From: Pseudobutyrivibrio ruminis CF1b
Lineage (GTDB): Bacteria; Bacillota; Clostridia; Lachnospirales; Lachnospiraceae
Assembly (NCBI RefSeq): GCF_000424005.1
Contig: NZ_AUJB01000009.1
Location: 1 to 64,000 of the forward strand
Reading direction: 5' to 3'
DNA length: 64,000 nucleotides
Part shown: positions 4,483 to 58,279 of the stretch, one piece after another
Layout of the letters: each line of letters opens with the position of its first letter
How positions within the stretch are numbered: the first letter of the stretch is position 1
Made by a program: the position numbers and the translations under genes
The notes under the pieces: model-generated
Told to the model about the DNA's origin: nothing
Seen by the model: only the letters and a program-made list of their open reading frames with translations
Database searches by the model: none

Positions 4483-4508
4483 GCCTTGTGCTCTCCCCTA
4501 ATTATTTA

Positions 4509-7217
4509 TTATTTGTCAAAATCCTTCTCTTTCAAGATGATATTGCCATCTCTGTCATATTTTGGCTTGTTGAAGAATCCACCTCTTGTGGACTTTTCAA
4601 TAGCTCCATCCATAATCTCTGCGACTTCCTTGATAGTAGTAGCATGATTGTATCGACCAATAAGATTGATTCGGTTGTATAATGCCAAAACACCCATATC
4701 ATCGATGGTGCATCCTGCTTCATATGCATAAGTTCTGGCGAAGGAAACTAACTCATCAATAGTAAAGGCTGGAATAACAATTTTTTCTGTGAAACGCTTT
4801 GCAAAAGAACTATCCTTTGAAAGTGCCTTTTCAACACCTCTTTTGTTATCCTCAATGATAAGAATAGTGCCTGTGTTATCCTGCTCCATAAGGAGTGAAA
4901 GTGTAACAGCTGTTTCCTTTGAAATCTCGCCTGCTGTTTCGATGATAAGACATCCACCCTGAATCTTTGAATAAAGCTTCTGGATGTCCTTCTCATTAAG
5001 CTTTTCGCCGGAAATCTTTCCGATTCCACCCTTTGGATATCCTGTTTTCTTTTCAAGTACCTTTATGATGCTGGTAGCCATCTGTGTCTTTCCTGAACCT
5101 GGCTCGCCAACAATAACAATATTTCCACCCTTTAACTCAGGCTGCTTGATTCTCTCTACAGCACCTGTAAGAACCTGCACAATACTTTCTTTCATTCCGC
5201 TGATTGGAAGGAAATATGAGAAGGTCTCTAAATCTTCAGCATCAAGATTGTAATCTGGAATTTCTTCCTTTATAGCGTTTGAAAGGACGCTTTCATCAAC
5301 AAGCTCTGCTATTTCCTGAGGCTCGAGCACGTTCTCTGAAATGATTGGAAGCTCTTCCTGAATCACTTCTTCCAGCTCTGCTGCAATCTCAGGTTCATTT
5401 TCAATCATAGCTTCAGATTCTGGATAAACCTCAACTGCGCTTTCTGAATAGCTTTCAGAAGCCTCTGGAAGCTCGGCTAACAAATCCTCTGGTATCTCGA
5501 TAATTGGAAGTTCTATGTCATCGATGTTAATCTCTGCTTCCTGAATATCAGTAGTATCAACAACTGGCTCTTCTGGAATTTCCTGCTGTATTTCCTCCTG
5601 AATCTTATCTTCCTCACCGATAGTTAATCTATCGATTTCCTGCTGCAACATTTTATTTACATCAGCAATCAGTTCTGATGCTTCTTTTAAATCCACTTCG
5701 TCCTCTTCTCCCTCGTCTAATATAGGTGGCTCCCAATTTGTTGTATCATTAAGAACCTCTCCCGCTGCCTGTACAATTCCGCCGGCTGCTGCAGCACCAA
5801 AAACTGCTGCTCCATCCTCAGCCTTTACAATTGGAATATCAATAGAGCCAAGCTCTAAGCCGTCAACGCCAAGCTTTGGAATTGAAAATCCTGCTTCTTT
5901 TTCTTCCTCAACAGGCTCCTCTTCCTCTGAAGCTGTCACTTCTTCTGGAATCTCTATCTGTGGGGCTACCTCTTCAACAGGAGCTGCTGTGGCTACAAAA
6001 TCTGTATTTGAAAGGTATTCCTCTTTAAGTAAGTCTGAGGAAGTCATACCTGCGTTAAGCTTTGACATAGCTCCCTCGAGACGATTAAGGACATTATTTG
6101 CTTCTCTAAGAGCCTTTGCTCTTGCGCTTTCAAGCTCTTTTTCCTTTGCATCTTCCATAGCTGCTTCTGCAGCTCTTTTTGTCTTTTCCCACTCTGCAAG
6201 GACATCTTCGATTGTCATCTGACCTTCGATTTGTTCCTCTGTCTCAGTGCTTTCATCGTCAAGGATAAGGCTAATCTGACCGTCATAGCCTTCCTCAAGA
6301 TACTGCTGGAAAGTGTCGTTTACAGAGAATTTGTCTGTTTCCTCAGCTACAGGAGCCTCCTCTTCAGTTACCTGAAGATATGGGATTTCTTCCACGAGAG
6401 TCTTAATAGCTTCTACATTTTCACTAACCTCTCCTGTGTCTGTGGCCTTCATGATTTCATCGATACTCTTTTTAATTTCTGCCTGAAGGTTAATAGTGTC
6501 GAAACGCTCTGGACCTTCTGGAAGCTTTATATTTGCAATAGCAGGGAGGATCTCACTGGATTCTGCCACTGGCTTAGGTGTGATTTCTACAATTCCGTCT
6601 TTCTTCTGCTGGAGGCTACGGTATTTATCCTCCTGAACCTTATCAAGTGGCTGGTAAAGCATCTTAAGCTCAAGTGCTCGTTCTACAACCGGGCCATCGC
6701 CAAACCAAAGAATGATTTCATCGCAAAGGCTGATACATTTATCTGCCTGGTTTGTCTTGTGATATAAATAAGCAAGCTCATAAGCCCACTCCTCGATAAA
6801 ATCATTTTCCTTGAGCTGCTCAAGGATAGTGATAAGAGTGGCTGAGTCTGCACCTTTAGCTGTATTAATATTATATTTCAGGATATATTTGAGACTATCG
6901 TGAGGAGCTATCTGTACAAATTCGTTGTAGTACTCCTGAGCTTCGTCTAATTCCTTTAATTTGATGGAAATCATACAAAGCTTGTACAGAATCATTCTTC
7001 CGATAGGAGAACGCTCATGGGCAAGCAAAAGCAAGTCCCTTGCCTCATCAATTTTCCCTGCAGCTTCATAAGATTCACTTCCTGCGATAAGGTCATTGAT
7101 GTTGTGGACTTTTCGCCAATTTATGGTATCGGCAATTGCCATTGCATCAGCAAATTTATTATTTGAGACGAGAGATTTCATCTCTTCAATTCGATTTCTG
7201 TATTCCATTTTTTCCAC
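4509..7217 (-). CDS. TPR/AAA+ ATPase with long acidic linker
   Basis: About 902 residues from a GTG at 7217, placed 9 nt after GGAG; the reading frame is open a little further upstream, but that TTG lies inside the Shine-Dalgarno sequence. Three parts are visible. An N-terminal helical-repeat region (about 1-200) has TPR-like pairs. A low-complexity Glu/Ala/Ile-rich linker (about 240-650) is probably disordered. A C-terminal AAA+ domain has Walker A GEPGSGKTQ, sensor-1-like TILIIEDN and an Arg-finger-like AKRFTEKIVIP, resembling CbxX/SpoVK ATPases. The Walker B region reads GGCLIIETAGE, lacking the usual Asp-Glu pair, so ATP hydrolysis may be impaired. It sits upstream of glgB. Function is not known. 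Confidence 0.7.
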   Translation of the reverse strand: MEKMEYRNRIEEMKSLVSNNKFADAMAIADTINWRKVHNINDLIAGSESYEAAGKIDEARDLLLLAHERSPIGRMILYKLCMISIKLKELDEAQEYYNEFVQIAPHDSLKYILKYNINTAKGADSATLITILEQLKENDFIEEWAYELAYLYHKTNQADKCISLCDEIILWFGDGPVVERALELKMLYQPLDKVQEDKYRSLQQKKDGIVEITPKPVAESSEILPAIANIKLPEGPERFDTINLQAEIKKSIDEIMKATDTGEVSENVEAIKTLVEEIPYLQVTEEEAPVAEETDKFSVNDTFQQYLEEGYDGQISLILDDESTETEEQIEGQMTIEDVLAEWEKTKRAAEAAMEDAKEKELESARAKALREANNVLNRLEGAMSKLNAGMTSSDLLKEEYLSNTDFVATAAPVEEVAPQIEIPEEVTASEEEEPVEEEKEAGFSIPKLGVDGLELGSIDIPIVKAEDGAAVFGAAAAGGIVQAAGEVLNDTTNWEPPILDEGEEDEVDLKEASELIADVNKMLQQEIDRLTIGEEDKIQEEIQQEIPEEPVVDTTDIQEAEINIDDIELPIIEIPEDLLAELPEASESYSESAVEVYPESEAMIENEPEIAAELEEVIQEELPIISENVLEPQEIAELVDESVLSNAIKEEIPDYNLDAEDLETFSYFLPISGMKESIVQVLTGAVERIKQPELKGGNIVIVGEPGSGKTQMATSIIKVLEKKTGYPKGGIGKISGEKLNEKDIQKLYSKIQGGCLIIETAGEISKETAVTLSLLMEQDNTGTILIIEDNKRGVEKALSKDSSFAKRFTEKIVIPAFTIDELVSFARTYAYEAGCTIDDMGVLALYNRINLIGRYNHATTIKEVAEIMDGAIEKSTRGGFFNKPKYDRDGNIILKEKDFDK

Positions 7218-45921: not shown

Positions 45922-46260
45922 TAATTACTATTATAATGGTGTAGGGGATTGTTTAAAGCAAAAAGAGCCTTATTTTTGAAATTTGAGCCTGTATTTAGCC
46001 TGCTAATTTTTATCCACAACTGTCAATTTCAGTTATCCACAAAAAACAGCCTTTATTTTACTATAATTGTTATATTTATTGTGGATAAATTAATTTTTAT
46101 CACGTCTTATCCACATAGTTTTCCACACATTGTAGATAACATTTAATTTTTTTTGAGGGTTTGAACACAACATTTAGTATTCCATTTTGATAGTTTTATT
46201 AAGATATTGTGTTTTTTAGTTATCCACAATGAATTCTATATTTAAATAATCGTTTTTTTA

Positions 46261-46289
46261 TTGACTTTATGGGCTTTTCCCTTTATAAT
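46261..46289 (+). promoter_or_regulatory. rpmH promoter
   Basis: -35 TTGACT (46261-46266), 17-base spacer, perfect -10 TATAAT (46284-46289), 40 bases before the rpmH ATG and next to a DnaA box (46220-46228). Confidence 0.88.
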
Positions 46290-46329
46290 TTCAACTGATG
46301 TTTTCTCATAAAGAGGAGGTGGATATATT

Positions 46330-46464
46330 ATGAAGATGACATATCAACCAAAAAAGAGACAGAGATCCAAAGTTCATGGATTTAGATCTAGAATGAGCAC
46401 AGCAGGCGGACGTAAGGTACTTGCTGCTAGACGTGCAAAAGGAAGAAAGAAGTTATCAGCTTAG
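46330..46464 (+). CDS. rpmH: 50S ribosomal protein L34
   Basis: A 44-residue basic protein, [20 protein letters not shown] through ...AKGRKKLSA, the exact length and pattern of L34. GAGGAGGT lies 10 nt before the ATG. It is the first gene of the rpmH-rnpA-yidD-yidC-jag cluster, transcribed away from oriC. Confidence 0.97.
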
Positions 46465-46512
46465 GCCACAGACCATGTGGTCTTTCTTTCTATTTAAAGG
46501 AAAATTTTTGTT

Positions 46513-46851
46513 ATGGAATTTAGTGAATCGCTAAAAAAGAATAAAGACTTCACTCTGGTATACAGAAGAGGTGTGTCCAAAGCTAATCGCCAGCTCGTTA
46601 TGTATATCTACCATAATAATACGGATCGAAATCGCATTGGAATTTCTGTTAGTAAAAAGGTTGGAAATTCGGTAGTTAGGCATCATTTGACGAGACTGAT
46701 AAGAGAAAGTTATAGACTAAATGAAGAGATGTTCAATAGTGGTTTGGACATTGTAGTCGTTGTAAGAGAGGCCGCAGCTTCTGCTAATTTCGATGAGATA
46801 CAAAAATCTTTGCTTCATCTTGCAAATCTTCACAAAGTAACTCGAAAATAA
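46513..46851 (+). CDS. rnpA: Ribonuclease P protein component
   Basis: A 112-residue basic RNA-binding protein that helps RNase P RNA mature tRNA 5' ends. The signature is RNRIGISVSKKVGNSVVRHHLTRLIRES, the conserved RNR-type motif. The N-terminal FTLVYRRGVS is also typical. It lies 48 bases after rpmH with AAAGGAAA upstream. Confidence 0.96.
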   Translation: MEFSESLKKNKDFTLVYRRGVSKANRQLVMYIYHNNTDRNRIGISVSKKVGNSVVRHHLTRLIRESYRLNEEMFNSGLDIVVVVREAAASANFDEIQKSLLHLANLHKVTRK

Positions 46852-46884
46852 TTGGAATTATCATTTCCATTGTGTTGAATAAGT

Positions 46885-47097
46885 ATGTTAAAGAGACTTT
46901 TTATATTTTTAATTAAGTTCTACCAAAAATATATATCTCCAATGAAAACTACTAAATGTCCTTATTGTCCCAGCTGTTCTAATTATGGGCTTCAGGCCGT
47001 TGAAAAATATGGAGCAATTAAGGGTGGCAGTTTAGCATTATGGCGTATCATTCGTTGTAATCCTTTTTCTCATGGTGGATATGATCCAGTTCCATAA
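46885..47097 (+). CDS. yidD: Membrane protein insertion efficiency factor YidD
   Basis: A 70-residue protein with the family pattern [21 protein letters not shown] and the terminal GGYDPVP, with three conserved Cys. It assists YidC. The ATG has no clear Shine-Dalgarno sequence (GTTGAATAAGT precedes it) and an in-frame stop lies 9 bases upstream, so no other start is possible; coupling to rnpA translation is likely. Confidence 0.93.
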
Positions 47098-47114
47098 AAA
47101 CTGGAGGTTTTACA

Positions 47115-48389
47115 TTGAGCGAGCTTTTATTAACCGCTTATGACGGTTCAATCTTAGGACCTATTGCGAAGGTTCTTGGTTGGTTTATGGACAAGATTTA
47201 TATTCTTCTTGCATCTATTGGTATTGAGAATATAGCTCTTACAATTGTTATTTTTACAATCTTTATCTATCTTTGTATGTTTCCTCTTACATATAAGCAG
47301 CAGAAGTTTGCTGTTCTTACACGTAAGATGCAGCCAGAGATGAAGGCTATTCAGGATAAATATAAAGGTAAGAAAGATCAGGCCTCTATGCAGGCACAGC
47401 AGAGTGAGACTCAGGCTCTTTATGATAAATACGGCATTTCACCTACAGGTAGCTGTGTTTACATGTTAATTCAGATGCCTATTCTTTTCGCTCTTTATAG
47501 AGTTTTCTATAATGTTCCAGCCTACATTTCTTCTGTAAAGAATGTATTTACAGAGCTTGTAAATGGCATTATGGCTACAGATGGTTTTGCTACAACTATG
47601 CAGACTATTTATGAGGAGTCAGGTGTTAAGAATCTTAAGCCTGATTTTACTGCAGCAGATACATCTGTTGTTTCTGATTCTATTATTGATGTACTTTATA
47701 AGCTTCCAACAGCAGGTTGGGAAGCTGTTACTTCTAATTTTCCTAATTTAGCTTCTTCTGTTGATACAGTTGTTGCTAAGCTTGAGAAGATTAACTACTT
47801 ATTTATTCTTAACATTTCAGATACACCACTTAACCTTATTAAGGATGGATGGTCTGCAAATACTAAGAATTTTGGGCTTATTATCTGTGCTTTACTTATT
47901 CCTTTATTCTCATATCTTACACAGATGTTAAATATTAAGCTCACACCTACTTCTACTGAAGGACAGTCAGAGCAGATGGCTCAGCAGATGAAGACTATGA
48001 ATCTTATGATGCCACTTATGTCACTCTTTATCTGTTTCTCAGTTCCTGTAGGTCTTGGTCTTTACTGGATTGCCGGTGCTGTTGTACGTATCATTCAGCA
48101 GTACTTCTTAAATAAGCATTTCGAGAAGATTGATCTTGAAAGCATCATTGAGAAGAATAAAGAAAAAGCCGCTGTTAAGGCTGAAAAGCGCGGTATTCGT
48201 CAGGCTCAGATTTACGAGGCAGCTCGTATGAGCACAAAGGCTACTACTATGACTGAGAAGGCTAACATGCTTTCAAATGATTCTGAAACTCTTAAAAAGG
48301 CTGAAGAGTTTAGATCAAAGGCTAGTAGTGGTTCACTTGCTTCAAAGGCAAATCTTGTTAAAGAATTTAACGAAATGAATAATAAATAA
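47115..48389 (+). CDS. yidC: Membrane insertase YidC/Oxa1
   Basis: A 424-residue insertase starting with TTG at 47115, 7 nt after GGAGG; no ATG fits. Helices lie at about 18-60, 120-140, 255-280 and 300-330. The cytoplasmic hairpin QQKFAVLTRKMQPEMKAIQDK and the following GISPTGSCVYMLIQMP segment are conserved. Between helices 2 and 3 a long hydrophilic insertion (about 145-250) replaces the shorter loop of Bacillus SpoIIIJ. The C-terminus is long, Lys/Ala-rich and cytoplasmic, as in forms that bind ribosomes. There is no lipobox. Confidence 0.95.
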   Translation: MSELLLTAYDGSILGPIAKVLGWFMDKIYILLASIGIENIALTIVIFTIFIYLCMFPLTYKQQKFAVLTRKMQPEMKAIQDKYKGKKDQASMQAQQSETQALYDKYGISPTGSCVYMLIQMPILFALYRVFYNVPAYISSVKNVFTELVNGIMATDGFATTMQTIYEESGVKNLKPDFTAADTSVVSDSIIDVLYKLPTAGWEAVTSNFPNLASSVDTVVAKLEKINYLFILNISDTPLNLIKDGWSANTKNFGLIICALLIPLFSYLTQMLNIKLTPTSTEGQSEQMAQQMKTMNLMMPLMSLFICFSVPVGLGLYWIAGAVVRIIQQYFLNKHFEKIDLESIIEKNKEKAAVKAEKRGIRQAQIYEAARMSTKATTMTEKANMLSNDSETLKKAEEFRSKASSGSLASKANLVKEFNEMNNK

Positions 48390-48403
48390 GGGGGAACTTA
48401 ATA

Positions 48404-49033
48404 ATGGAATTTAAAGAGTTTACTGGTAAGACTGTTGATGATGCCCTTACTAATGCAACAGTTTCATTAGGTGTGACTTCTAGCGAGATTAAATACGAAG
48501 TAGTAGAAGAAGGAAGCTCTGGTTTCCTTGGTATTGGTTCAAAGGATGCTATCATTAAGGTAGTTATTTCTACAGAGGAAGATCCAAAGCAGGTTGCTAA
48601 GGAATTTCTTGATGGCGTATTTGAAGCTATGCAGCTCGAAGTTAATATTTCAATGGAGTTCAGCGAAGAAGATGATACACTTCTTATCGACCTTGCTGGT
48701 CCAGAGATGGGTGTATTAATTGGTAAGCGTGGTCAGACACTTGATTCTTTACAGTATCTTACTAACTTAGCTGTTAATCGTTCTTCTGAAAAATATACAA
48801 GAGTTAAGATTGATACAGAAGATTACAGACGTCGTAGAAAAGAGACTTTAGAAAATCTTGCAAAGAATATGGCTAGCAAGGTTAAGAGAACAAAGAAGGC
48901 TGTTACTCTTGAAGCTATGAATCCTTATGAGAGACGTATTATCCATTCAGCACTTCAGAATGATAATAATGTTACAACTCATTCAGAGGGTGAGGAGCCA
49001 TATCGCTACGTAGTTATTACACTTAAGAAATAA
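48404..49033 (+). CDS. jag: RNA-binding protein Jag (KhpB)
   Basis: A 209-residue protein of three domains: Jag-N (about 1-50, FKEFTGKTVDDALTNA), KH (about 75-145, with LIGKRGQTLDSLQYL) and R3H (about 150-209, MNPYERRIIHSALQ). It binds RNA and in Firmicutes influences cell division and wall synthesis. It starts 15 bases after yidC with AGGGGGAA and is followed by a weak terminator. Confidence 0.95.
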   Translation: MEFKEFTGKTVDDALTNATVSLGVTSSEIKYEVVEEGSSGFLGIGSKDAIIKVVISTEEDPKQVAKEFLDGVFEAMQLEVNISMEFSEEDDTLLIDLAGPEMGVLIGKRGQTLDSLQYLTNLAVNRSSEKYTRVKIDTEDYRRRRKETLENLAKNMASKVKRTKKAVTLEAMNPYERRIIHSALQNDNNVTTHSEGEEPYRYVVITLKK

Positions 49034-49047
49034 TCTTTTGATTTTTT

Positions 49048-49083
49048 AGGGTTAGTCTTATAATTAGGCTAACCCTTGTTGTT
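49048..49083 (+). terminator. Probable terminator after jag
   Basis: Stem AGGGTTAG/CTAACCCT (49048-49055, 49069-49076) with a 13-base loop, followed by the T-rich TGTTGTTTG. It closes the rpmH cluster, though the T tract is interrupted. Confidence 0.6.
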
Positions 49084-49144
49084 TGTTTTATAGAATTTAT
49101 AATCTATTTATAAGCTCTATAAGATAAATAGTTTGGAGGCTAAT

Positions 49145-50515
49145 ATGTATCATTCTGATACCATTTGCGCTATCGCTACATCTATGAATAGTTCTGGCAT
49201 TGGAATAATTCGTGTCAGTGGAGAAGAATCAATTTCTATAGTTGATTCTATTTTTCGTGGAAAAAATAAATTAGCTGATTGTGATACACATACTATTCAG
49301 TACGGACATATTGTTTCTAATGATGAAGTGATAGATGAAGTACTCATAATGCTTATGAAGGCTCCAAGAAGTTATACTACAGAGGATACTATTGAGATTG
49401 ATTGTCATGGTGGTGTTCTTATTCTTAAAAAAGTACTTTCTCTTTTAATAGAAGCTGGAGCAAGAATAGCTGAACCAGGAGAATTTACAAAAAGAGCATT
49501 CTTAAATGGAAGAATAGATTTATCAGAAGCAGAATCAGTTATGGATTTGATTTCTTCAAATTCAGAATTGGCAATGAAGAATTCTATTAAACAATTATCT
49601 GGTTCATTAAATAAAATCATTGTTGATTTAAGAGATAAGATTTTATATGAAACAGCATTTATAGAATCAGCTTTAGATGATCCTGAACATTATGATTTAA
49701 CTGATTATCCTGAAGAGTTAAGAGATAAAGTAAATGATATGATTGGAAGAGTTGATGATTTGATTGATTCATTTAATTCTGGTCATATTTTAAAAGAAGG
49801 TATTAATACTCTTATTTTAGGAAAACCTAATGCTGGAAAGTCTTCTTTATTAAACACATTAAGTAGAAGAGAAAGAGCAATTGTTACTGATATTCCAGGT
49901 ACTACAAGAGATACTTTGGAAGAGCAGATTACAATTAATGGAGTTTCTCTTAATATTATTGATACAGCAGGTATTAGAGAGACTGATGATATAGTAGAAA
50001 AGATTGGTGTAGATAAAGCTCTCGATTCTATTGATGATGCTGATTTGATTTTATTTGTAATTGATTCATCAAGACCATTAGATGAGAATGATGAGTTCAT
50101 TATTGATAAGATTATAGATAAAAAAGTAATCATTTTACTTAATAAATCTGACCTCGAGACGAAAATTAGCGAGGAAGAAATATGCAATAAGTACAATAAA
50201 CCTGTTATTTCTTTCTCATCTGTTAGCTTAGATGGTCTTAAAACATTAGAATCTAAAATAACAGATATGTTCTTTAGTGGTCAGGTAAAATCTGATGATA
50301 CTTTGTACATTACAAACTCTAGACAGGCTGGTTGTTTGACTAATGCAAAGAATAGTTTGTCTAATGTTTTAAATAGTATTGATAATATGATGCCAGAAGA
50401 TTTCTTTTCAATTGATTTAATGGATGCATATAACTTCCTTGGTGAAATCACTGGTGAAACTATTGATGATGATTTAGCTAATAAAATTTTCTCAGAGTTT
50501 TGTATGGGAAAGTAA
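49145..50515 (+). CDS. mnmE: tRNA uridine-5-carboxymethylaminomethyl GTPase MnmE
   Basis: 456 residues from the ATG at 49145, 5 nt after GGAGG. The N-terminal folate-binding domain (about 1-115) precedes a helical domain and an inserted G domain (about 215-375) with P-loop GKPNAGKSSLLN, switch TTRDTLEE, DTAGIRET and NKSD. The protein ends in the conserved C-terminal FCMGK (CxGK). It works with MnmG, encoded next, to modify the wobble U34 of several tRNAs. Confidence 0.97.
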   Translation: MYHSDTICAIATSMNSSGIGIIRVSGEESISIVDSIFRGKNKLADCDTHTIQYGHIVSNDEVIDEVLIMLMKAPRSYTTEDTIEIDCHGGVLILKKVLSLLIEAGARIAEPGEFTKRAFLNGRIDLSEAESVMDLISSNSELAMKNSIKQLSGSLNKIIVDLRDKILYETAFIESALDDPEHYDLTDYPEELRDKVNDMIGRVDDLIDSFNSGHILKEGINTLILGKPNAGKSSLLNTLSRRERAIVTDIPGTTRDTLEEQITINGVSLNIIDTAGIRETDDIVEKIGVDKALDSIDDADLILFVIDSSRPLDENDEFIIDKIIDKKVIILLNKSDLETKISEEEICNKYNKPVISFSSVSLDGLKTLESKITDMFFSGQVKSDDTLYITNSRQAGCLTNAKNSLSNVLNSIDNMMPEDFFSIDLMDAYNFLGEITGETIDDDLANKIFSEFCMGK

Positions 50516-50534
50516 AAGTAGTAAGGAGTAATAA

Positions 50535-52415
50535 ATGAGTCATGTTGAAGAATCCTATGATGTAGTTGTTATAGGAGCTGGTCATGCTGGTTGTGAAGCT
50601 GCACTTGCTTCTGCCCGCATGGGATTAAATACAATTTGTTTTACAGTTAGCATGGATTCAGTTGCAATGATGCCATGTAATCCAAACATTGGTGGAAGTT
50701 CAAAGGGACATCTTGTAAGAGAACTTGATGCACTTGGTGGTCAGATGGGTATCAATATTGATCACACATTTATCCAGTCTAAGATGCTTAACAGTTCTAA
50801 AGGACCTGCAGTACATTCACTTAGAGCACAGGCTGATAAAGCTGCATACTCTCAGAGAATGAGAAAGACTATGCAGGATACTGAAAATCTTACATTAAGA
50901 CAGGCAGAAGTTACTGAATTAATTATTGAGGATAGAAAAGTAGCAGGAGTAAAGACTCTTTCCGGGGCTACTTATCATTGTAAGGCAGTTGTTATTTGTA
51001 CAGGAACATATCTTAGAGCAAGATGTTTATACGGTGATGTTATTGAACACAATGGTCCAAATGGATTAAAAGCTGCAAATCACTTAACTGACTCATTACT
51101 TGCTAATAATGTAGAAATGAACCGCTTTAAAACTGGTACTCCGGCAAGAATTGATAGTAATTCTATCGACTATTCTAAGATGGAAATCCAGCTTGGAGAC
51201 AATCCAGTAGTGCCATTTTCATTTAGCACAAAGAGAGAGGATGTTCAGATTGAACAGGTTCCTTGTTATCTTACATATACTAATGAAAAGACTCATGAAA
51301 TTATCAGAGCAAACCTTGATCGTTCACCAATGTATTCAGGTGTAATCGAAGGAACTGGTCCAAGGTACTGTCCAAGTATTGAAGACAAGGTTGTTCGTTT
51401 TGCAGATAAGAATCGTCATCAACTTTTCGTTGAACCAGAAGGACTTAACACAAATGAAATGTATATTGGTGGTATGAGTTCTTCAATGCCAGAGGATGTT
51501 CAGTATGCAATGTACAGAACAGTACCTGGACTTGAAAATTGTAAAATAGTTCGTAACGCATATGCGATAGAATACGATTGTATTAATGCTACTCAGCTTA
51601 AGGCCAGCTTAGAGTTTAAAGATATTGATGGTCTTTTTGCTGCAGGACAGTTTAATGGAAGTAGTGGATATGAAGAGGCTGCAGCTCAGGGATTAGTTGC
51701 AGGAATTAATGCTGCACTTAAACTTCTTGAAAAAGAACCAATGATTCTTGATAGAAGTAATTCATACATTGGTGTTCTTATTGATGACCTTGTTACCAAG
51801 GAGACAAAAGAGCCATATCGTATGATGACATCACGTGCAGAGTACAGACTTTTACTTAGACAGGATAATGCAGATTTAAGACTTTCAAAGATTGGATATC
51901 ATGTAGGTCTTTTATCAAAAGAGCGTTATGACCATGTAGTTGAAAAGGAAAGACAGATAGAAGAAGAGGTAGCAAGAGTAAAGGAGATTAATGTTGGTGC
52001 CAGAAAAGAAGTACAGGCACTTCTTGAATCTTATGGAAGTATTCCTCTTTCAAATGGTATAAAGTTAGTAGACTTAATTAGAAGACCAGAGCTTGATTAT
52101 GATAAGCTTGCTCCTATTGATCCAGAGAGACCAGAACTTTCTGATGAAGTACGAGAAGAGGTAAATATCTATATTAAGTACGAAGGATACCTTACAAGAC
52201 AGGCAAAACAGGTAGAGCAGTTCAAGAAACTTGAATCTAAAGTTATACCACAAAATATAGATTATGAGGATGTTTCTAGTTTACGCTTAGAAGCAAGACA
52301 AAAGCTTACTAAATTACGTCCAGCTAACATTGGACAGGCTTCAAGAATTTCTGGAGTTAGCCCAGCAGATATATCTGTACTTTTAGTTTATCTGGAAACA
52401 TATAAGGGTTATTAA
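50535..52415 (+). CDS. mnmG: tRNA uridine-5-carboxymethylaminomethyl enzyme MnmG (GidA)
   Basis: A 626-residue FAD-dependent partner of MnmE. The FAD-binding motif is [20 protein letters not shown]; the conserved [14 protein letters not shown] and DNADLRL regions and the C-terminal helical domain ending [10 protein letters not shown] are present. AGTAAGGAG precedes the ATG, 19 bases after mnmE. A structured element follows its stop. Confidence 0.97.
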
Positions 52416-52431
52416 TTTTTTTAATCGATGT

Positions 52432-52595
52432 TTTTAAGGGTGGTTTTATTGGTGCTAATGAATGCACCAATAAAATCTGGCATTCATTTCATTTATGCCA
52501 GACTACTTTCTTGAACATAGTTCAAGAAAGCATCCTATTACAGTAATTAATAAGCTTGATGCTTATTAATTACTTACTTCTATATACCCTTAAAA
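52432..52595. other. Four-hairpin element with closing stem (five-way junction)
   Basis: A 164-base element between mnmG and rsmG. The outer stem TTTTAAGGGT/ACCCTTAAAA pairs 52432-52441 with 52586-52595. Inside are four perfect hairpins: 12 bp (52444-52455/52464-52475), 8 bp (52476-52483/52495-52502), 11 bp (52506-52516/52520-52530) and 13 bp (52543-52555/52561-52573, extendable by one A-T). Loops 1 and 2 hold complementary AATGAA and TTCATT, allowing a kissing pair. No known RNA family is recognised. It could act as RNA in the rsmG leader (which begins 27 bases beyond) or as DNA. Confidence 0.8.
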
Positions 52596-52621
52596 CAATC
52601 AAATTTTTTTGAAGGAGCTTT

Positions 52622-53341
52622 ATGAGTAGAGATTATTCATACTTAGTTGATACATTATCAGGTTGGAATTTTACATTAACTGACAGACAGATAGAACAGC
52701 TTGATTTATTTTATGAATTATTAGTAGAGAAGAATAAGGTAATGAATCTTACTGCTATTACTGAGTTCGATGAAGTTATTGTAAAACATTTTGCTGATAG
52801 TTTATCTATATGTACAGTATTACCTGATTCAGTTAAAAATGTTTGTGACCTTGGAACAGGCGCTGGTTTTCCAGGTATTCCTATGGCAATAGCTTACCCT
52901 AATTTACAGTTTACACTTATCGATTCTTTGAATAAGCGTATTAAGTTTTTACAGGAAGTAGTTGATGCATTAGGACTTACTAATGTTACCCTTGTACATG
53001 CAAGAGCAGAAGAAGCAGGACGTAATAAATTATATAGAGAAAAGTTTGATTTAGTAGTATCACGTGCAGTCGCAAACATTGCTACTTTATCAGAGTATTG
53101 TTTACCACTAGTAAATGTAGGTGGATACTTTATTAGCTTTAAGTCTGGTGACGTAAAAGAAGAGATTGAAACATCAGGTTCAGCAGTTAAAAAGCTTGGT
53201 GGAAATCTTACTAAGCCAGTATACTTTTCTTTACCAGATACAGATATTAGCAGATCATTTTTGATAATAAAGAAAGAAAAGAATACTCCAAAGGCATATC
53301 CTAGAAAAGCTGGAACTCCAAGCAAGGAACCTTTGAAGTAA
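52622..53341 (+). CDS. rsmG: 16S rRNA (guanine-527-N7)-methyltransferase RsmG
   Basis: A 239-residue SAM methyltransferase (GidB). The SAM site is VCDLGTGAGFPGIPMAIAYP, and HFADSLSI and SRAVANIATLSEYCLPL are family motifs. The C-terminal tail after ISRSFLIIKKEK is short and basic. GAAGGAG precedes the ATG. Its upstream leader would include the 3' part of the hairpin element. Confidence 0.96.
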   Translation: MSRDYSYLVDTLSGWNFTLTDRQIEQLDLFYELLVEKNKVMNLTAITEFDEVIVKHFADSLSICTVLPDSVKNVCDLGTGAGFPGIPMAIAYPNLQFTLIDSLNKRIKFLQEVVDALGLTNVTLVHARAEEAGRNKLYREKFDLVVSRAVANIATLSEYCLPLVNVGGYFISFKSGDVKEEIETSGSAVKKLGGNLTKPVYFSLPDTDISRSFLIIKKEKNTPKAYPRKAGTPSKEPLK

Positions 53342-53346
53342 TATCA

Positions 53347-53362
53347 TGTTTCACGTGGAACA
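53347..53362. other. parS: parS site 1
   Basis: TGTTTCACGTGGAACA, a 16-base palindrome with one pair off symmetry, matching the ParB-binding parS consensus. It lies 5 bases after the rsmG stop, before the 170-residue gene. Confidence 0.92.
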
Positions 53363-53411
53363 TATATAGTAATTGTGATTTGTTACAACACAACATGTAG
53401 GGGGAATATCT

Positions 53412-53924
53412 ATGATTAATGACTTCCTTAAAAAATATCAGGAAGAACTTATTTCTGAAAAAATTCAATTAAAAGAAGATATGGACTTGCTTGAAACAAA
53501 GATTAAGGAAGAAAATAAATTCCTTAATCTTTTAGAAGAGTCCAATGAATCATATTTCAAAGAATTTACTCCTAGGAATTTAAATGCAAAGAATAATAAA
53601 AAAGCAGAAGAAATACGTGAGTATCTTGTAGAATTAAATGGTCAACTAGATGAAAAGCAGACTCAGATGAAATTCTATGATGGAAGATTAGTAGAGCTAA
53701 GTACTTTAATTTCTAATACTGTTGTCAATCAGCAGCCAGTTGTAGAAACTGTTGAAGAACCAATATCAGAAGAGATAGTTGAAAGTGAAGATGAAGTCGG
53801 AACTAATCCATTTGGAATATCAAATTCAGACTTGATTGGACAACTTTCTAATATAAAAGATTTGATTTTATTAGATCCATACAGAGCTCAGATTGAATTA
53901 GAAAAAATAATTTCTACTATATAA
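53412..53924 (+). CDS. Coiled-coil protein between parS sites
   Basis: A 170-residue soluble protein of unrecognised family. Residues about 5-100 are a predicted coiled coil (KYQEELISEKIQLKEDMDLL), residues 110-135 an acidic linker, and the C-terminus (about 140-170) an amphipathic LSNIKDLILLDPYRAQIELEKI helix. AGGGGGAA precedes the ATG. It lies between rsmG and parA with one parS site before it and two after, so it would be inside a ParB-spread zone; involvement in partition is only suggested by position. Confidence 0.6.
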   Translation: MINDFLKKYQEELISEKIQLKEDMDLLETKIKEENKFLNLLEESNESYFKEFTPRNLNAKNNKKAEEIREYLVELNGQLDEKQTQMKFYDGRLVELSTLISNTVVNQQPVVETVEEPISEEIVESEDEVGTNPFGISNSDLIGQLSNIKDLILLDPYRAQIELEKIISTI

Positions 53925-53948
53925 TCTTTAACAACCTAAATATAGATA

Positions 53949-53964
53949 TGTTTCACGTGAAACA
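53949..53964. other. parS: parS site 2
   Basis: TGTTTCACGTGAAACA, a perfect 16-base palindrome identical to the common Firmicutes parS type. Confidence 0.95.
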
Positions 53965-54050
53965 TTTTATGTATATATTAGGTTCTAAACACAAAATATA
54001 GTACTTGGATTTTTGAATCAACTCCTATATATTGCAGTTTTAAATGATAA

Positions 54051-54066
54051 TGTTTCACGTGAAACA
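54051..54066. other. parS: parS site 3
   Basis: Second perfect copy of TGTTTCACGTGAAACA, 86 bases after site 2 and 160 bases before parA. ParB loading here would mark the origin region for segregation and could repress parAB. Confidence 0.95.
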
Positions 54067-54225
54067 TTATCTTTTTATTAATAGAACACCTATATATAGT
54101 TAATTAAATCAATATATATATATAATCGCACAGATTTTCTTGGTAGAATTGAATTATAGGTAATGATATAATTCTAAGAGTTAAGATCATAAAGAAACTA
54201 GAAAAAGAAAAGAGGGAGACAACAA

Positions 54226-54996
54226 ATGAAGAGAGTGATTGCAATTGCCAACCAGAAGGGTGGCGTTGGTAAAACTACTACTAGTATTAACCTTTCAGCT
54301 TGCTTGGCTGAAGCAGGAAAGAAAGTCCTTGTTATCGATACTGATCCACAGGGAAATGCTACAAGTGGTCTCGGTTTAGATAAGGATGAATGTGAGAATA
54401 CTGTTTATGATTTAGTTTTAGATCAGTGCAGCATTAAGGAGTGTATGTATAAGGTGGAGAATATTCCTAACCTTACAATCATTCCATCAAATGTTGATTT
54501 AGCTGGTGCAGAAATTGAACTTCTTGGAATCAATGAAAAGGAATATATCCTTAGAAATGCAGTAGATTATGTTAAGGATGATTTCGATTATGTAATCATT
54601 GATTGTCCTCCTTCACTTAATATGCTTACAATCAATGCTATGACAACAGCTGATTCTGTGCTTGTACCTATCCAGTGTGAGTACTATGCGTTGGAAGGAA
54701 TTAGCCAGTTGATTCATACAATTGACCTTGTTCAGGAAAGACTTAACTCAAAGCTTCAAATTGATGGTGTTGTATTTACTATGTATGATGCCAGAACAAA
54801 TCTTTCTTCAGATGTAGTTGATACTGTAAAAAATAATCTTAATGCTACAGTATATCAGACTATTATTCCTAGAAATGTTAGACTTGCAGAGGCTCCTTCA
54901 CACGGACTTCCTATCAATCTTTATGATCCAAAGTCTACAGGAGCAGAGAGCTATCGTAATCTTGCAAAAGAAATTATCGGGAGAAAGGATATTTAA
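54226..54996 (+). CDS. parA: Chromosome partitioning ATPase ParA (Soj)
   Basis: A 256-residue MinD/ParA-type ATPase without the N-terminal DNA-binding domain of plasmid ParA. The deviant Walker A KGGVGKTTTSINL includes the signature first Lys. Also present are VIDTDPQGNATSGLG, DYVIIDCPPSLNML and VPIQCEYYALEGI. It acts with ParB at parS to place origins. The stop is 2 bases before parB. Confidence 0.97.
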   Translation: MKRVIAIANQKGGVGKTTTSINLSACLAEAGKKVLVIDTDPQGNATSGLGLDKDECENTVYDLVLDQCSIKECMYKVENIPNLTIIPSNVDLAGAEIELLGINEKEYILRNAVDYVKDDFDYVIIDCPPSLNMLTINAMTTADSVLVPIQCEYYALEGISQLIHTIDLVQERLNSKLQIDGVVFTMYDARTNLSSDVVDTVKNNLNATVYQTIIPRNVRLAEAPSHGLPINLYDPKSTGAESYRNLAKEIIGRKDI

Positions 54997-54998
54997 AA

Positions 54999-55892
54999 AT
55001 GGCTGTTAAAAAGGGAGGTCTCGGTAAGGGATTAGATTCTCTTATTGTAAATAAGAATGAGGGTGTAGTAGCTGTTAATCCAGAACAGCATGGAGCACCA
55101 GTAGAGGTTGATATCAATAAGGTTGAACCTAATAAGCTTCAGCCTAGAAAGAATTTTGATGAAGATAAACTTCAGGATTTAGCAGAGAATATTAAGATAC
55201 ATGGAATTATCAATCCACTTATTGTTCAGGACCGAGGAAAGTATTATGAAATCATCGGTGGTGAGCGTAGATGGAGAGCTGCTAGATTAGCAGGTTTTAA
55301 GAAAGTTCCAGTTATCATTATGAATCTTAGCGAGCAGGAGTTCGTTGAGATTTCTCTTATTGATAATATCCAGCGTGAGCAGTTAAACCCAATCGAAGAA
55401 GCTATGGCATTTGCTAGACTTATTGATGAGTTTAAACTCAAGCAGGATGAGGTAGCAGAGAGAGTATCAAAGAGCAGAACAACTATCACTAATGCTCTTA
55501 GATTACTTAAGCTTGATAAGCGTGTCCAGGATATGATTGTTGATGACAAACTTACAACTGGTCATGCTAGAGCTATGCTTGCAATTACTGATCCAGACAA
55601 GCAGTATGAGTTTGCTGAAAGAGCATTCGATGAGAAGATGTCTGTTCGTGATGTTGAGCGTGAGGTAAAGAAGCTCATCAATGATAAGAAATCTGATAAG
55701 AAGTCAAAAGCAGCAGAGCTTGATCCACAGCTTGTTGCAGTTTATGAGCAGACTCAGGAAAAGCTTAAGGGTGTACTTGGTACAAAGGTATTTATTAATG
55801 CCAAGGATAACAAATCAGGAAGACTTGAGATTGAATACTATTCTCAGGATGAGTTAAACAGAATAGTAGATTTACTTGAAAGTATAAAATAA
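54999..55892 (+). CDS. parB: Chromosome partitioning protein ParB (Spo0J)
   Basis: A 297-residue ParB. The CTP-binding domain has NKLQPRKNFDEDKLQDLAENI, GERRWRAARLAG and LIDNIQREQLNPIEEA; a helix-turn-helix (about 140-190, QDEVAERVSKSRTTITNALRL) reads parS; the C-terminal dimer domain follows. The initial short GGLGKGLDSLI motif is the segment expected to touch ParA. AAAGGA lies inside the parA 3' end. Confidence 0.97.
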   Translation: MAVKKGGLGKGLDSLIVNKNEGVVAVNPEQHGAPVEVDINKVEPNKLQPRKNFDEDKLQDLAENIKIHGIINPLIVQDRGKYYEIIGGERRWRAARLAGFKKVPVIIMNLSEQEFVEISLIDNIQREQLNPIEEAMAFARLIDEFKLKQDEVAERVSKSRTTITNALRLLKLDKRVQDMIVDDKLTTGHARAMLAITDPDKQYEFAERAFDEKMSVRDVEREVKKLINDKKSDKKSKAAELDPQLVAVYEQTQEKLKGVLGTKVFINAKDNKSGRLEIEYYSQDELNRIVDLLESIK

Positions 55893-55928
55893 AACATATG
55901 TTCGCTACGAGCATTTATAGGAGTAGAA

Positions 55929-56423
55929 ATGATAGAGCAGTATTTAGGTTTTAGTTCAGATTACATTTTATTAGGACTTGCAGCATTAGTCCTGATTTTG
56001 ATTATTCTTTTAATAGTTTTCATCGTACAGATGTCAAAGCTTAAGAAGAGATACAAAATCTTCATGGAAGGTAGCACAGCAAGATCATTAGAAGATACAC
56101 TTATTTACAGATTAGAGCAGGTAGATGAACTCATCGAAGCTAACGCAAGCAATGAGAGAAATATCGATACAATCTTTAAGAACATGCAGCCTTGCTTCCA
56201 GAAGATTGGACTTGTAAAGTATGACGCCTTCAATGAAATGGGAGGAAAGCTCAGCTTTTCACTTTGCTTATTAAACGAGTTAAATTCAGGATTCATAATT
56301 AATGCTATGCATTCTCGTGAAGGATGTTATACTTATGTTAAGGAGATTATAGATGGAAATTCTATAATCCAACTTGCAGAGGAAGAAGAGAAGGCATTAC
56401 AACAGGCTTTAGGTGACAATTAA
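55929..56423 (+). CDS. DUF4446 family membrane protein
   Basis: A 164-residue protein with a single N-terminal transmembrane helix (about 13-35), a short helical region with RSLEDTLIYRLEQVDELIEAN, and a compact domain VGLVKYDAFNEMGGKLSFSLCLLNELNSGFII typical of DUF4446, which occurs next to parB in many Clostridia. Function is unknown. AGGAG precedes the ATG. The stop overlaps the next start (TAATG). Confidence 0.85.
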   Translation: MIEQYLGFSSDYILLGLAALVLILIILLIVFIVQMSKLKKRYKIFMEGSTARSLEDTLIYRLEQVDELIEANASNERNIDTIFKNMQPCFQKIGLVKYDAFNEMGGKLSFSLCLLNELNSGFIINAMHSREGCYTYVKEIIDGNSIIQLAEEEEKALQQALGDN

Positions 56424-57295
56424 TGCATAAATACATGCCAGCAGTTGGTTTTAGCAAATTAAATAAAGCGGCCCTTGAAGAGTTAATAAAAGAAATTACT
56501 CTTAGACCAGATTATCAGGAGTCTGCAATTGATTTCGAAGGGAATCAGTTTGTAGAACTTCGATATATGGTGGCGGATAATGTGGGATTAGTACTTAGAG
56601 GAATCTACAATGAAAATGATGAGTTTATTTTAGATTATTACTATCCTACTTATTTTGGTGGGTCTCTTTCTATCAATAATGATGTAGAAGTAATTAAGCA
56701 GACTGATAAAGATAACTACTATGTAATGTGCGACGAGATTAGATTAGGCGTTAATCTTATTTTTCAGCTTCAGAACATGGGCGAATATCTTAGAAGATGT
56801 GGAAGTACTAACAAAGTAGAAAATAGAGATATCAGATTATCAGCTCTTTCTACTGAGGGAAAAATTCTTTTACCTGTATACGACAATGAAAAAAGTCGTA
56901 TTAAGGAAAAAATGAATAATCAGAAGAGAATAAATCTTGTTGAACAGGCAAGGGATGGAAACGAAGAAGCCCTTGAAAGTCTTACTATGGACGAGATAGA
57001 TCTCTATCAGAAGATTTCCAGAAGAGTGACAAGAGAAGACATTTTTAGTGTCGTAACATCTTTCTTTATGCCATATGGAATAGAGAATGATAAGTATGAG
57101 ATTCTGGGAGATATCTTAGATGTAAAGTATGTGGTAAATCATCTTACCATGGAAGAACTTTGCATTATGATTATCGAAAGTAACGATGTAGTGCTTGAAG
57201 TCTGCATTAATAAAAATGATTTATTTGGTGAGCCATTAGTTGGCAGACGTTTTAAAGGTATAATCTGGCTACAGGGAACAGTGGCGTTTTCCTAA
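56423..57295 (+). CDS. DUF3881 family protein
   Basis: A 290-residue soluble protein beginning MHKYMPAVGFSKLNKAALEE, the pattern of DUF3881, so far seen in Lachnospiraceae. A mixed alpha/beta first half is followed by a helical Glu/Arg-rich part (about 165-200) and a C-terminal domain with ICINKNDLFGEPLVGRRFKG-like residues. It is translationally coupled to the DUF4446 gene. Function is unknown. Confidence 0.8.
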   Translation: MHKYMPAVGFSKLNKAALEELIKEITLRPDYQESAIDFEGNQFVELRYMVADNVGLVLRGIYNENDEFILDYYYPTYFGGSLSINNDVEVIKQTDKDNYYVMCDEIRLGVNLIFQLQNMGEYLRRCGSTNKVENRDIRLSALSTEGKILLPVYDNEKSRIKEKMNNQKRINLVEQARDGNEEALESLTMDEIDLYQKISRRVTREDIFSVVTSFFMPYGIENDKYEILGDILDVKYVVNHLTMEELCIMIIESNDVVLEVCINKNDLFGEPLVGRRFKGIIWLQGTVAFS

Positions 57296-57297
57296 TC

Positions 57298-57326
57298 TTG
57301 ATTTTTCATAACCAGTAGATTAAAAT
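57298..57326 (+). promoter_or_regulatory. tRNA-Arg promoter
   Basis: -35 TTGATT (57298-57303), 17-base spacer, -10 TAAAAT (57321-57326), 25 bases before the tRNA. The promoter sits inside an inverted repeat (57301-57344): a 12-bp arm ATTTTTCATAAC with GTTGTGAAAAAT, then a small inner stem. Confidence 0.7.
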
Positions 57327-57351
57327 CTAATAGTTGTGAAAAATCGCTTCT

Positions 57352-57425
57352 GTTTGAGTAGCTCAGCTGGATAGAGCGTCCGCCTCCTAAGCGGAAGGTC
57401 GTGGGTTCGAATCCCATCTCGAACA
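57352..57425 (+). tRNA. tRNA-Arg (CCT)
   Basis: A 74-nt cloverleaf. Acceptor GTTTGAG pairs with CTCGAAC (one G-T pair); the D-loop has AGCTCAGCTGGATAGAGC; the anticodon loop CTCCTAA gives CCT; the T-loop is GTTCGAATC. CCA is not encoded. Two terminators follow. Confidence 0.95.
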
Positions 57426-57442
57426 TTAATACTTTAATTATT

Positions 57443-57467
57443 TTGGAGCCTTAGGGCTCCATTTTTT
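57443..57467 (+). terminator. tRNA-Arg terminator 1
   Basis: Stem GGAGCC/GGCTCC (57445-57450, 57455-57460) with a 4-base loop, followed by ATTTTTT. Confidence 0.88.
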
Positions 57468-57471
57468 ATTT

Positions 57472-57502
57472 TACAATCTGGTTAGTGCCAGGTTGTATTT
57501 TT
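57472..57502 (+). terminator. tRNA-Arg terminator 2
   Basis: Stem TACAATCTGG/CCAGGTTGTA (one wobble) at 57472-57481 and 57488-57497, then five T. Tandem with the first terminator. Confidence 0.8.
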
Positions 57503-57670
57503 ATGCTGTAATTAACACTGTTTAGCCACAATAATTTCGCAATATTGTCATAAAATAGTTAGGAATGATAAGTAGTCTAATAATTACAAATATTGTATAA
57601 TCAAAAGTAGAATATTGAACTATGATTTCATACAAAGGGGGAAAATAATTATTTAGGAGGACGGTTGTCT

Positions 57671-58279
57671 ATGGCTGATGTTACTTTAACAAAAGAGCAA
57701 CAAGATACACTGGGTGAAATTGCGAATATTAGTATGGGATCTTCTGCAACGTCTCTTAGTGCATTACTAAATAATCTAAAGGTAGATATAACTACACCTA
57801 AGATTGAATTGATAAGAAAAAGTGAATCACTTGATGATTATCACAATGTGTGTGTATTAGTTCATATAAATTATGTTAAGGGATTATCTGGAAGTAACGT
57901 TTTAATTCTTAAGGAAAACGATGTAAAGATAATTGCTGATTTAATGATGGGTGGTCCAGGAGTAGCAGGACCAGATGATATTGGAGAAATTCAGTTATCT
58001 GCAGTATCAGAAGCTATGAACCAGATGATGGGTAGTGCGGCTTCTTCTATGTCACAGCTTTTGAATAGAGTAGTAGATATTTCTCCACCAAAGACAGATA
58101 ACATTGATGTAGAAAGTGTTAAGATTTTTGAGAGGTTATTCGAGTCACCAGAAATAGATTTTGTAAAGATAACATTTAATTTAAAAATTGGGACAATAAT
58201 AGATTCAGTTATGGTACAGCTGTATCCTATTTCTTTTGCATTGGACATGGTACATCTATTTGATAAAAAGGATGCATAA
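57671..58279 (+). CDS. FliY/CheC-type CheY-P phosphatase domain protein
   Basis: A 202-residue protein from the ATG at 57671 (AGGAGG 10 nt upstream); a TTG two codons earlier is also possible. It is a complete CheC-like domain with both phosphatase sites: GEIANISMGSSATSLSALL and LSAVSEAMNQMMGSAASSM, each with the E-x2-N pattern and a Pro about 23 residues on. The second is very close to FliY of flagellar motors. Unlike FliY, there is no N-terminal CheY-docking peptide and no C-terminal FliN domain, and no che or fli genes are adjacent. It is followed after 11 bases by a membrane protein gene. It likely dephosphorylates CheY-like regulators. Confidence 0.8.
   Translation: MADVTLTKEQQDTLGEIANISMGSSATSLSALLNNLKVDITTPKIELIRKSESLDDYHNVCVLVHINYVKGLSGSNVLILKENDVKIIADLMMGGPGVAGPDDIGEIQLSAVSEAMNQMMGSAASSMSQLLNRVVDISPPKTDNIDVESVKIFERLFESPEIDFVKITFNLKIGTIIDSVMVQLYPISFALDMVHLFDKKDA

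Follow-up and report, generated by a model that had tools for sequence, protein, structure and literature searches.

The window, a stretch of 64,000 nucleotides from Pseudobutyrivibrio ruminis CF1b (genome G000), contains a densely paired spacer whose flanking genes match GIDA and GidB in Pfam, bearing out its placement between mnmG and rsmG in the original prediction (Table 1). Each stem of the five-way junction proposed there was found in its place and perfectly paired (outer stem 10 bp, then 12, 8 and 11 bp), although the last, given as 13 bp, is 14 bp long. RNA folding of 52420–52610 yielded −70.8 kcal/mol, compared with a mean of −27.25 (sd 3.43) for dinucleotide shuffles (z = −12.7; 0/200 shuffles equal or better), so that the suggestion of pairing beyond chance was upheld. 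No intrinsic terminator was called within 52300–52800, in keeping with the earlier impression that the structure is not terminator-like. A search with the 4227 covariance models of Rfam placed no family on the element (window positions 46000–58000, E up to 5), and none matched it in nine loci with copies searched at E up to 1. The four inner hairpins, H1 to H4, are reversed relative to mnmG–rsmG transcription, with H1 first, 26 nt after mnmG.

Table 1. Features of the mnmG–rsmG region, in window positions. R1 and R2 are covariance models built on 11 and from 52 copies, respectively.
Feature	Position	Strand	Evidence
mnmG (context)	50535..52415	+	Pfam GIDA match
Left arm of older host mnmG–rsmG spacer hairpin (outer stem of the original prediction), TTTTAAGGGT; 10 bp, perfect	52432..52441	.	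Same hairpin without insert in 8 genomes
Full copy of the four-hairpin mobile repeat	52442..52574	- (H4-first, 'sense' orientation)	R1 156.7 bits, R2 116.4 bits; copies at other loci; empty site in relatives
Hairpin H1: 12 bp, 8-nt loop	52444..52475 (arms 52444-52455/52464-52475)	.	Perfect pairing; covariation
Hairpin H2: 8 bp, 11-nt loop	52476..52502 (arms 52476-52483/52495-52502)	.	Perfect pairing; covariation
Hairpin H3: 11 bp, 3-nt loop	52506..52530 (arms 52506-52516/52520-52530)	.	Perfect pairing; covariation
Unpaired linker CATCCTATTAC	52531..52541	.	Alignment columns; commonest family form tGCCatnTACG
Hairpin H4: 14 bp, apex loop TTGAT	52542..52574 (arms 52542-52555/52561-52574)	-	Minus strand = tagged hairpin, REP shape; tag GTAA in window copy
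Target TA, right side	52575..52576	.	Comparison with empty sites; left partner without A (GGGT/GG)
Right arm of host hairpin, ACCCTTAAAA; 10 bp, perfect	52586..52595	.	Same hairpin without insert in 8 genomes
rsmG (context)	52622..53341	+	Pfam GidB match

Spacers for comparison were chosen after a BLAST of the region against 29 genus genomes, in which several relatives matched the right edge only, and the mnmG–rsmG spacer was read in ten genomes of the genus, the window and G009 (L028) included. In 8/10 (L011, L012, L013, L014, L016, L018, L023 and L024) the host hairpin TTTTAAGGGTA-CTTCTATA-TACCCTTAAAA, or a close variant, was free of any insert. The window carries 133 bp inside the loop of this hairpin, at its GTAC; G009 carries, at the same TA, a member of a different subfamily in the opposite orientation with TA on both sides, and the left TA of the window copy is one base short (A missing). 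Judged from this comparison of sequences, the outer stem is older host sequence and the four inner hairpins are a separate unit with a different history. The outer stem being the host's own, the five-way junction is no conserved unit, and its reading as one structure has to be given up. The suggestion of an rsmG leader finds no support in the same spacers, only two of which (the window and G009) hold a family member, in different subfamilies and opposite orientations. In the window the repeat stands reversed within the loop of the host hairpin, probably as a recent insertion; apart from the structure that it adds to the spacer, this copy itself probably does little. The loop of the host hairpin is itself flipped in some species (CTTCTATA versus TATAGAAG; L012 and L024 versus L014, L016, L018 and L023), as if recombination between its arms had turned the hairpin over.

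The search of relatives proposed with the original prediction recovered copies at unrelated sites throughout the genus: R1 had matches in 24/29 genus genomes (own genome included in the set) at E values up to 0.01, two of them at E 0.007 only, with as many as 23 rows in a single genome (G008). The window's own genome gave 13 R2 rows, nine of them full-length at E 4e-12 or better. When named genomes were scanned with an exact pattern, 14 stretches came back, the records being Pseudobutyrivibrio or Butyrivibrio fibrisolvens 16/4. A third covariance model, which adds one diverged copy, was run on 397 family genomes under strict filters that lose weak matches, and found matches in five, spanning 4/334 genera (the own genus, G172, G249 and G321); an earlier run of R2 on the family was positive in 3/250 genomes. 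Four copies lie in G172. In the diverged copies the stems are very different, but an H1 loop of AAGG type, GGACA, a linker resembling TGCCAT-T(A)CG and a GAT apex persist in most. The element measures about 105–142 bp, with four hairpins, GG...CC ends and TA flanks, and its hosts are rumen-type bacteria (Pseudobutyrivibrio and a few relatives). Phage and plasmid collections held no match to the window element, and an IMG/VR scan gave 0 stretches with an H1 pattern that covers part of the family only, the window copy lying outside it. Among the matches listed from the open-access literature, no such repeat was described for Pseudobutyrivibrio or other Lachnospiraceae.

Insertion could be followed at several loci. 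Before a Glu/Leu/Phe/Val dehydrogenase gene in the own genome (L061), the sequence reads CTTTTCTA/GG...CT/TAGATTG, with slashes at the element boundaries, versus CTTTTCTAGATTG in G019, and G027 has a truncated element remnant at the equivalent site. A duplicated TA flanks the element at L061 (/L105) and L028, the two cleanest sites. In other genomes the sites at atpE–atpF, dnaK–dnaJ, L009, L043, L067, L068, L073, L077 and L081 either have no insert or have a different one; the older gene-end loci have no clean empty sites. Head-to-tail tandem arrays (three units at L062, two each at L049 and L102, and also in G321), insertions of other orientation or place (the window, L061 and L028) and the amplification of one subfamily in G008, with 37 BLAST matches and internal-deletion remnants, together indicate real mobility. 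On the evidence of these genome comparisons the four inner hairpins are a dispersed mobile repeat, absent from the orthologous site in relatives, and the palindromic mobile repeat among the options first offered is the one that held, with copies at unrelated sites in many genomes and an empty mnmG–rsmG site in relatives. The three copies of the L062 array (G009:C56:29165-29516) follow a glycosyltransferase gene; the H4 sequences of its two far units are nearly the same, whereas the H4 next to the gene is similar to the flank at the opposite end of the array.

Gene context was examined for 83 of 94 matches, leaving aside 8 reverse-strand overlaps of palindromic copies, 2 L052 rows at the same place as L102 and a truncated forward copy (L007:1896-1975). 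Most often (53/83) the element stood between two codirectional genes, A and B, with H4 next to A, the upstream one. Hand assignment put 98 copies (the 83 and 15 later ones) into 59 locus groups. In 31 of these the gene upstream has its stop codon inside the element's first 25 nt; the other 28 were not scored as having it there, among them the atpE group, where the script took a longer ORF and the 86-aa ORF (ATP-synt_C) does have its stop in the element. In one form the stop is a TAG whose TA comes from the flank and whose G comes from the element; in the other it is a TAA or TGA codon 10–21 nt in (TGA or TAA in the G172 copies). For 29 of the 31 groups, random choice of a TA in the spacer would place about five there, a figure to be read with the loci having been chosen for this feature. 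Gene-end loci shared between genomes, of which one representative each was checked in Pfam, included dnaK–dnaJ (6 genomes), atpE–atpF (5), a glycosyltransferase gene of family 2 (9) and an ABC permease (7) that precedes a 557-aa gene lacking a Pfam match; G022 has a copy at rpoC–rpsL, where G011 has a solo H4. The window copy stands outside the gene-end arrangement and supplies no stop codon.

Some orthologous gene-end copies were more conserved than their surroundings. At the ABC-permease locus of three species (L054, L081 and L082) the element was 129/129 identical, versus 277–281/300 (92–94%) for the upstream coding sequence; L085 and L086 were identical at 126/127 positions versus 89–90% in their neighbours, and L010 and L027 at 126/128 versus 85–87%. 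Other orthologous pairs fell below their neighbours in conservation, the lowest at 62%. Gene-end copies may shape the mRNA end.

Pairing was conserved across the family. In alignment A3, which drew on 48 of the 76 sources from the 94-match scan and was fitted to the R1 structure, and hence is biased toward it, 95.9% of 2196 cells in 52 copies were standard pairs; 43/45 pairs showed changes on both sides (588 cells changed on both sides; 0/500 shuffles), and the compensatory stem changes sought by the covariance-model check first suggested for this element were thus found. Covariation was 0.656 versus 0.150 shuffled, and sliding the partners by one column halved pairing. An earlier MAFFT alignment of 11 copies agreed (97.7% paired, 25 pairs with double changes), and a measure of further pair types was weaker, being reached by 14/500 shuffles for the 52 copies and by 157/500 in another covariation test. 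Of the unnamed structured RNA once envisaged here, the strong covariation stands, with no Rfam match, and what falls away is its belonging to mnmG–rsmG.

Loops AATGAA (52457–52462) and TTCATT (52488–52493) are complementary and lie where they were first reported, but the kissing interaction proposed between H1 and H2 was rejected: complementarity of at least 6 bases occurs in 4/52 copies (the window, L007, L019 and L025), and the mean number of complementary bases over the 52 copies, 2.5, equals the permuted mean of 2.5. Pairing between the H1 loop and the linker, showing no excess over permuted copies in the same 52, was rejected likewise. The H2 loop is TTC in 22/52 copies, in some of them closed by C-G (e.g. 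L009, L044 and L062), so that the gene-sense strand reads C-GAA-G. The C-GAA-G loop is exceptionally stable in single-stranded DNA.

Wobble cells were very rare (11 G-T and 42 A-C of 2196), and their asymmetry (42 versus 11 cells) points to the sense strand of the upstream gene. This lean was seen in 23 versus 4 copies among the 45 rows classed as gene-oriented and, the rows not being independent, in 5 versus 1 among the 7 reversed rows. Suggestive as the strand test is for the sense strand, the lean is the same in reversed copies, so it does not follow the way in which the copies are now transcribed. Selection on the hairpins at the RNA level is likely, to judge from the pairing pattern, with hairpin-level selection or correction of the DNA a possible alternative; the near absence of wobble would be expected also from DNA palindromes or template-switch correction.

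We consider the element probably to be a trans-mobilised small non-coding palindromic repeat, often kept as an mRNA-end structure, with the window copy a reversed insertion. It would be moved in trans by a transposase, perhaps via a single-stranded hairpin intermediate like REPs, and gene-end copies would be retained because their hairpins shield the upstream mRNA or determine how stable it is, or tune the cistron downstream, an effect on the mRNA end of the kind proposed for ERIC (PMC2229807) and REPs (PMC3733652, PMC6006769).

Compensatory change among copies, orthologous loci included, a common stop-codon position in four genera, unpaired motifs conserved in 48 copies and the wobble excess on the sense strand would all suit a cis-acting structured RNA of gene ends (3′-UTR or intercistronic), spread by ordinary duplication and horizontal transfer with no dedicated mobility. 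That reading is possible but rather doubtful, given the insertions elsewhere and reversed (the window, L061, L028), the tandem arrays, the G008 subfamily with its 37 BLAST matches, and the rarity of wobble pairs.

Among known systems the closest kinds are GTAG-tagged REPs, the best match, and TA-flanked MITE-like repeats. ERIC/RU-1, RUP and Correia elements are 107–155 bp long and intergenic, with TA termini and highly base-paired transcripts, and for ERIC an orientation-dependent effect on mRNA stability has been reported (PMC2229807). By their description they resemble our element in size, intergenic position, TA termini and dense pairing (PMC2229807); they have terminal inverted repeats and long stem loops, whereas our element has four separate hairpins and, by eye, no terminal inverted repeat beyond GG...CC, which is common to both ends of most copies. 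An origin as a MITE mobilised by a DDE transposase with TA specificity (IS630/Tc1-mariner or IS5 subgroup) would explain the TA duplication at L061 and L028 and would match the TA termini of ERIC, RUP and Correia (PMC2229807). It is nonetheless unlikely, for the one DDE domain searched for, the IS630-type PF13358 (DDE_3), was found in 0/29 genus genomes, terminal inverted repeats are confined to the GG/CC, and no longer form with an ORF between element ends occurred among the G008 matches listed.

GTAG REPs are 20–40 bp long and lie just 3′ of genes, often with a terminus that gives a TAG stop (PMC3733652), and are thought to be mobilised by RAYTs (PMC3733652, PMC6006769). Palindromic repeats with both a tagged hairpin and stop-codon docking have been reported mainly from Proteobacteria (PMC3733652), and the text of that paper makes no mention of Firmicutes or Clostrid- (PMC3733652). 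By the published rule a REP has GTAG or GTGG 0–2 nt 5′ of a hairpin with a stem of 7–20 bp and a loop of 2–5 nt (PMC6006769). H4 has such a hairpin, with a 14-bp stem and a 4–5-nt loop, tagged by GTAG in 46/98 copies and by another NTAG in 28/98, although the window copy (GTAA) and the G172 copies (TGAG/ATGA) depart from the tag rule; further points of likeness are the position 3′ of genes, the TAG stop, clustered copies and complementary stem changes. The element differs in its size (105–142 bp with four hairpins) and in forming head-to-tail arrays, which are absent or under-represented among REPs in the account given by that literature (PMC3733652).

A true REP, meaning a ssDNA element moved by a RAYT (TnpA-REP) via GTAG and H4 with the other three hairpins as an add-on, would account for the tagged hairpin seen on H4-first reading and for the TAG stop and position just 3′ of genes that published GTAG REPs often share (PMC3733652). 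Such an origin is distinctly unlikely in view of the enzymes found: Y1_Tnp is present in 10/29 genus genomes and had no match in G000, G018 or G022, each with 8–10 R1 rows, and 18 Y1-transposase loci gave 0 element matches at E up to 1. The G172 tag of TGAG or ATGA speaks against it as well, as does the TA duplication at clean sites, which is not expected from a Y1 enzyme. Of the two transposase families searched for, Y1_Tnp and DDE_3, neither could be linked to the element. YD-repeat genes beside copies in this genome were also considered as a mobility gene and rejected, as on reading of their sequences they look like duplicated tip cassettes. Three same-orientation copies, two of them weak matches, lie among YD-repeat/RHS-like C-terminal cassettes at L070 (G000:C1:908162-913330), and a fourth copy lies 5′ of a similar cassette at L071 (G000:C6:10543).

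Two further kinds of repeat bear comparison. The bcr1–bcr18 repeats of Bacillus cereus are, like our element, dispersed and intergenic in Gram-positive hosts; about half are transcribed, within UTRs, operon spacers or ORF-less units, and some have conserved RNA structure (PMC3446304). They belong to another host group, with no stop-codon docking described in the part of that source used here (PMC3446304), and are likened by description only. TwoAYGGAY RNA (RF01731) is a dispersed palindromic repeat in the same genomes, of other sequence and with a much longer palindrome than the element; it occurs in 27/29 genus genomes, with 49 matches in G007 (an own-genome example is G000:C1:463771-463931). 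In P. xylanivorans MZ8 (L184:4388-5126) it occupies the middle of a palindrome some 740 bp long, in which 4388–4521 pairs with 4989–5126 and 4647–4976 pairs with itself, and a copy of our element (4526–4641) interrupts one arm; the nested unit recurs at other sites in the same genome and in G011. This Rfam family thus behaves in the genus as a multi-copy palindromic repeat.

At least 9 bases of the first H4 arm recurred within 45 nt beyond the H1 end in 23/78 copies (20 of the 98 being omitted as near-identical or truncated), as against about 5%, and at most 11.7%, in permuted pairs. In at least 5 of these 23 copies another array unit follows immediately. The flank copy often runs on into the apex ATCATCA, which identifies it as a further, usually truncated, H4; the matches of the window (+24, in mnmG) and L061 (+31) look like chance. 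The second H4 arm is missing at most dnaK–dnaJ and atpE–atpF copies. One could picture a mobile RNA module docking on stop codons as a transposable ribosome-sensitive switch of the upstream/downstream protein ratio (e.g. dnaK–dnaJ, atpE–atpF), an idea we regard as quite improbable. In such a switch the 5′ arm of H4 starts at the stop codon, so that a terminating ribosome would cover it, and the 3′ arm could pair with either the stop-codon side or the far-side arm, the latter pairing enclosing H1–H3. Alternatively, the second arm may be no more than what is left of a neighbouring tandem unit, and decayed tandem arrays explain the flank repeats equally well. An origin of the H4 arms as a copy of the native target, suggested by the frequent recurrence of the H4 arm in the flank beyond H1, was rejected, for at the clean insertions (the window, L061 and L028) they are, by eye, unlike their targets; the seemingly empty sites L111 and L144 at the GT2 locus look like internal deletions retaining part of H4. 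On both grounds the flank repeats are read as tandem or truncated H4 units.

Readings as chance palindromes or as a leader specific to rsmG, which have the position alone in their favour, are of negligible probability beside the fold score, the covarying homologues and the empty site in eight relatives.

The four-hairpin version has spread through one genus of Lachnospiraceae and can be recognised, in diverged form, in another three genera of that family. Its orthologous copies, with compensatory change and in some cases greater identity than the adjacent coding sequence, offer a natural series on which the point where a mobile repeat turns into a working mRNA element could be tested.
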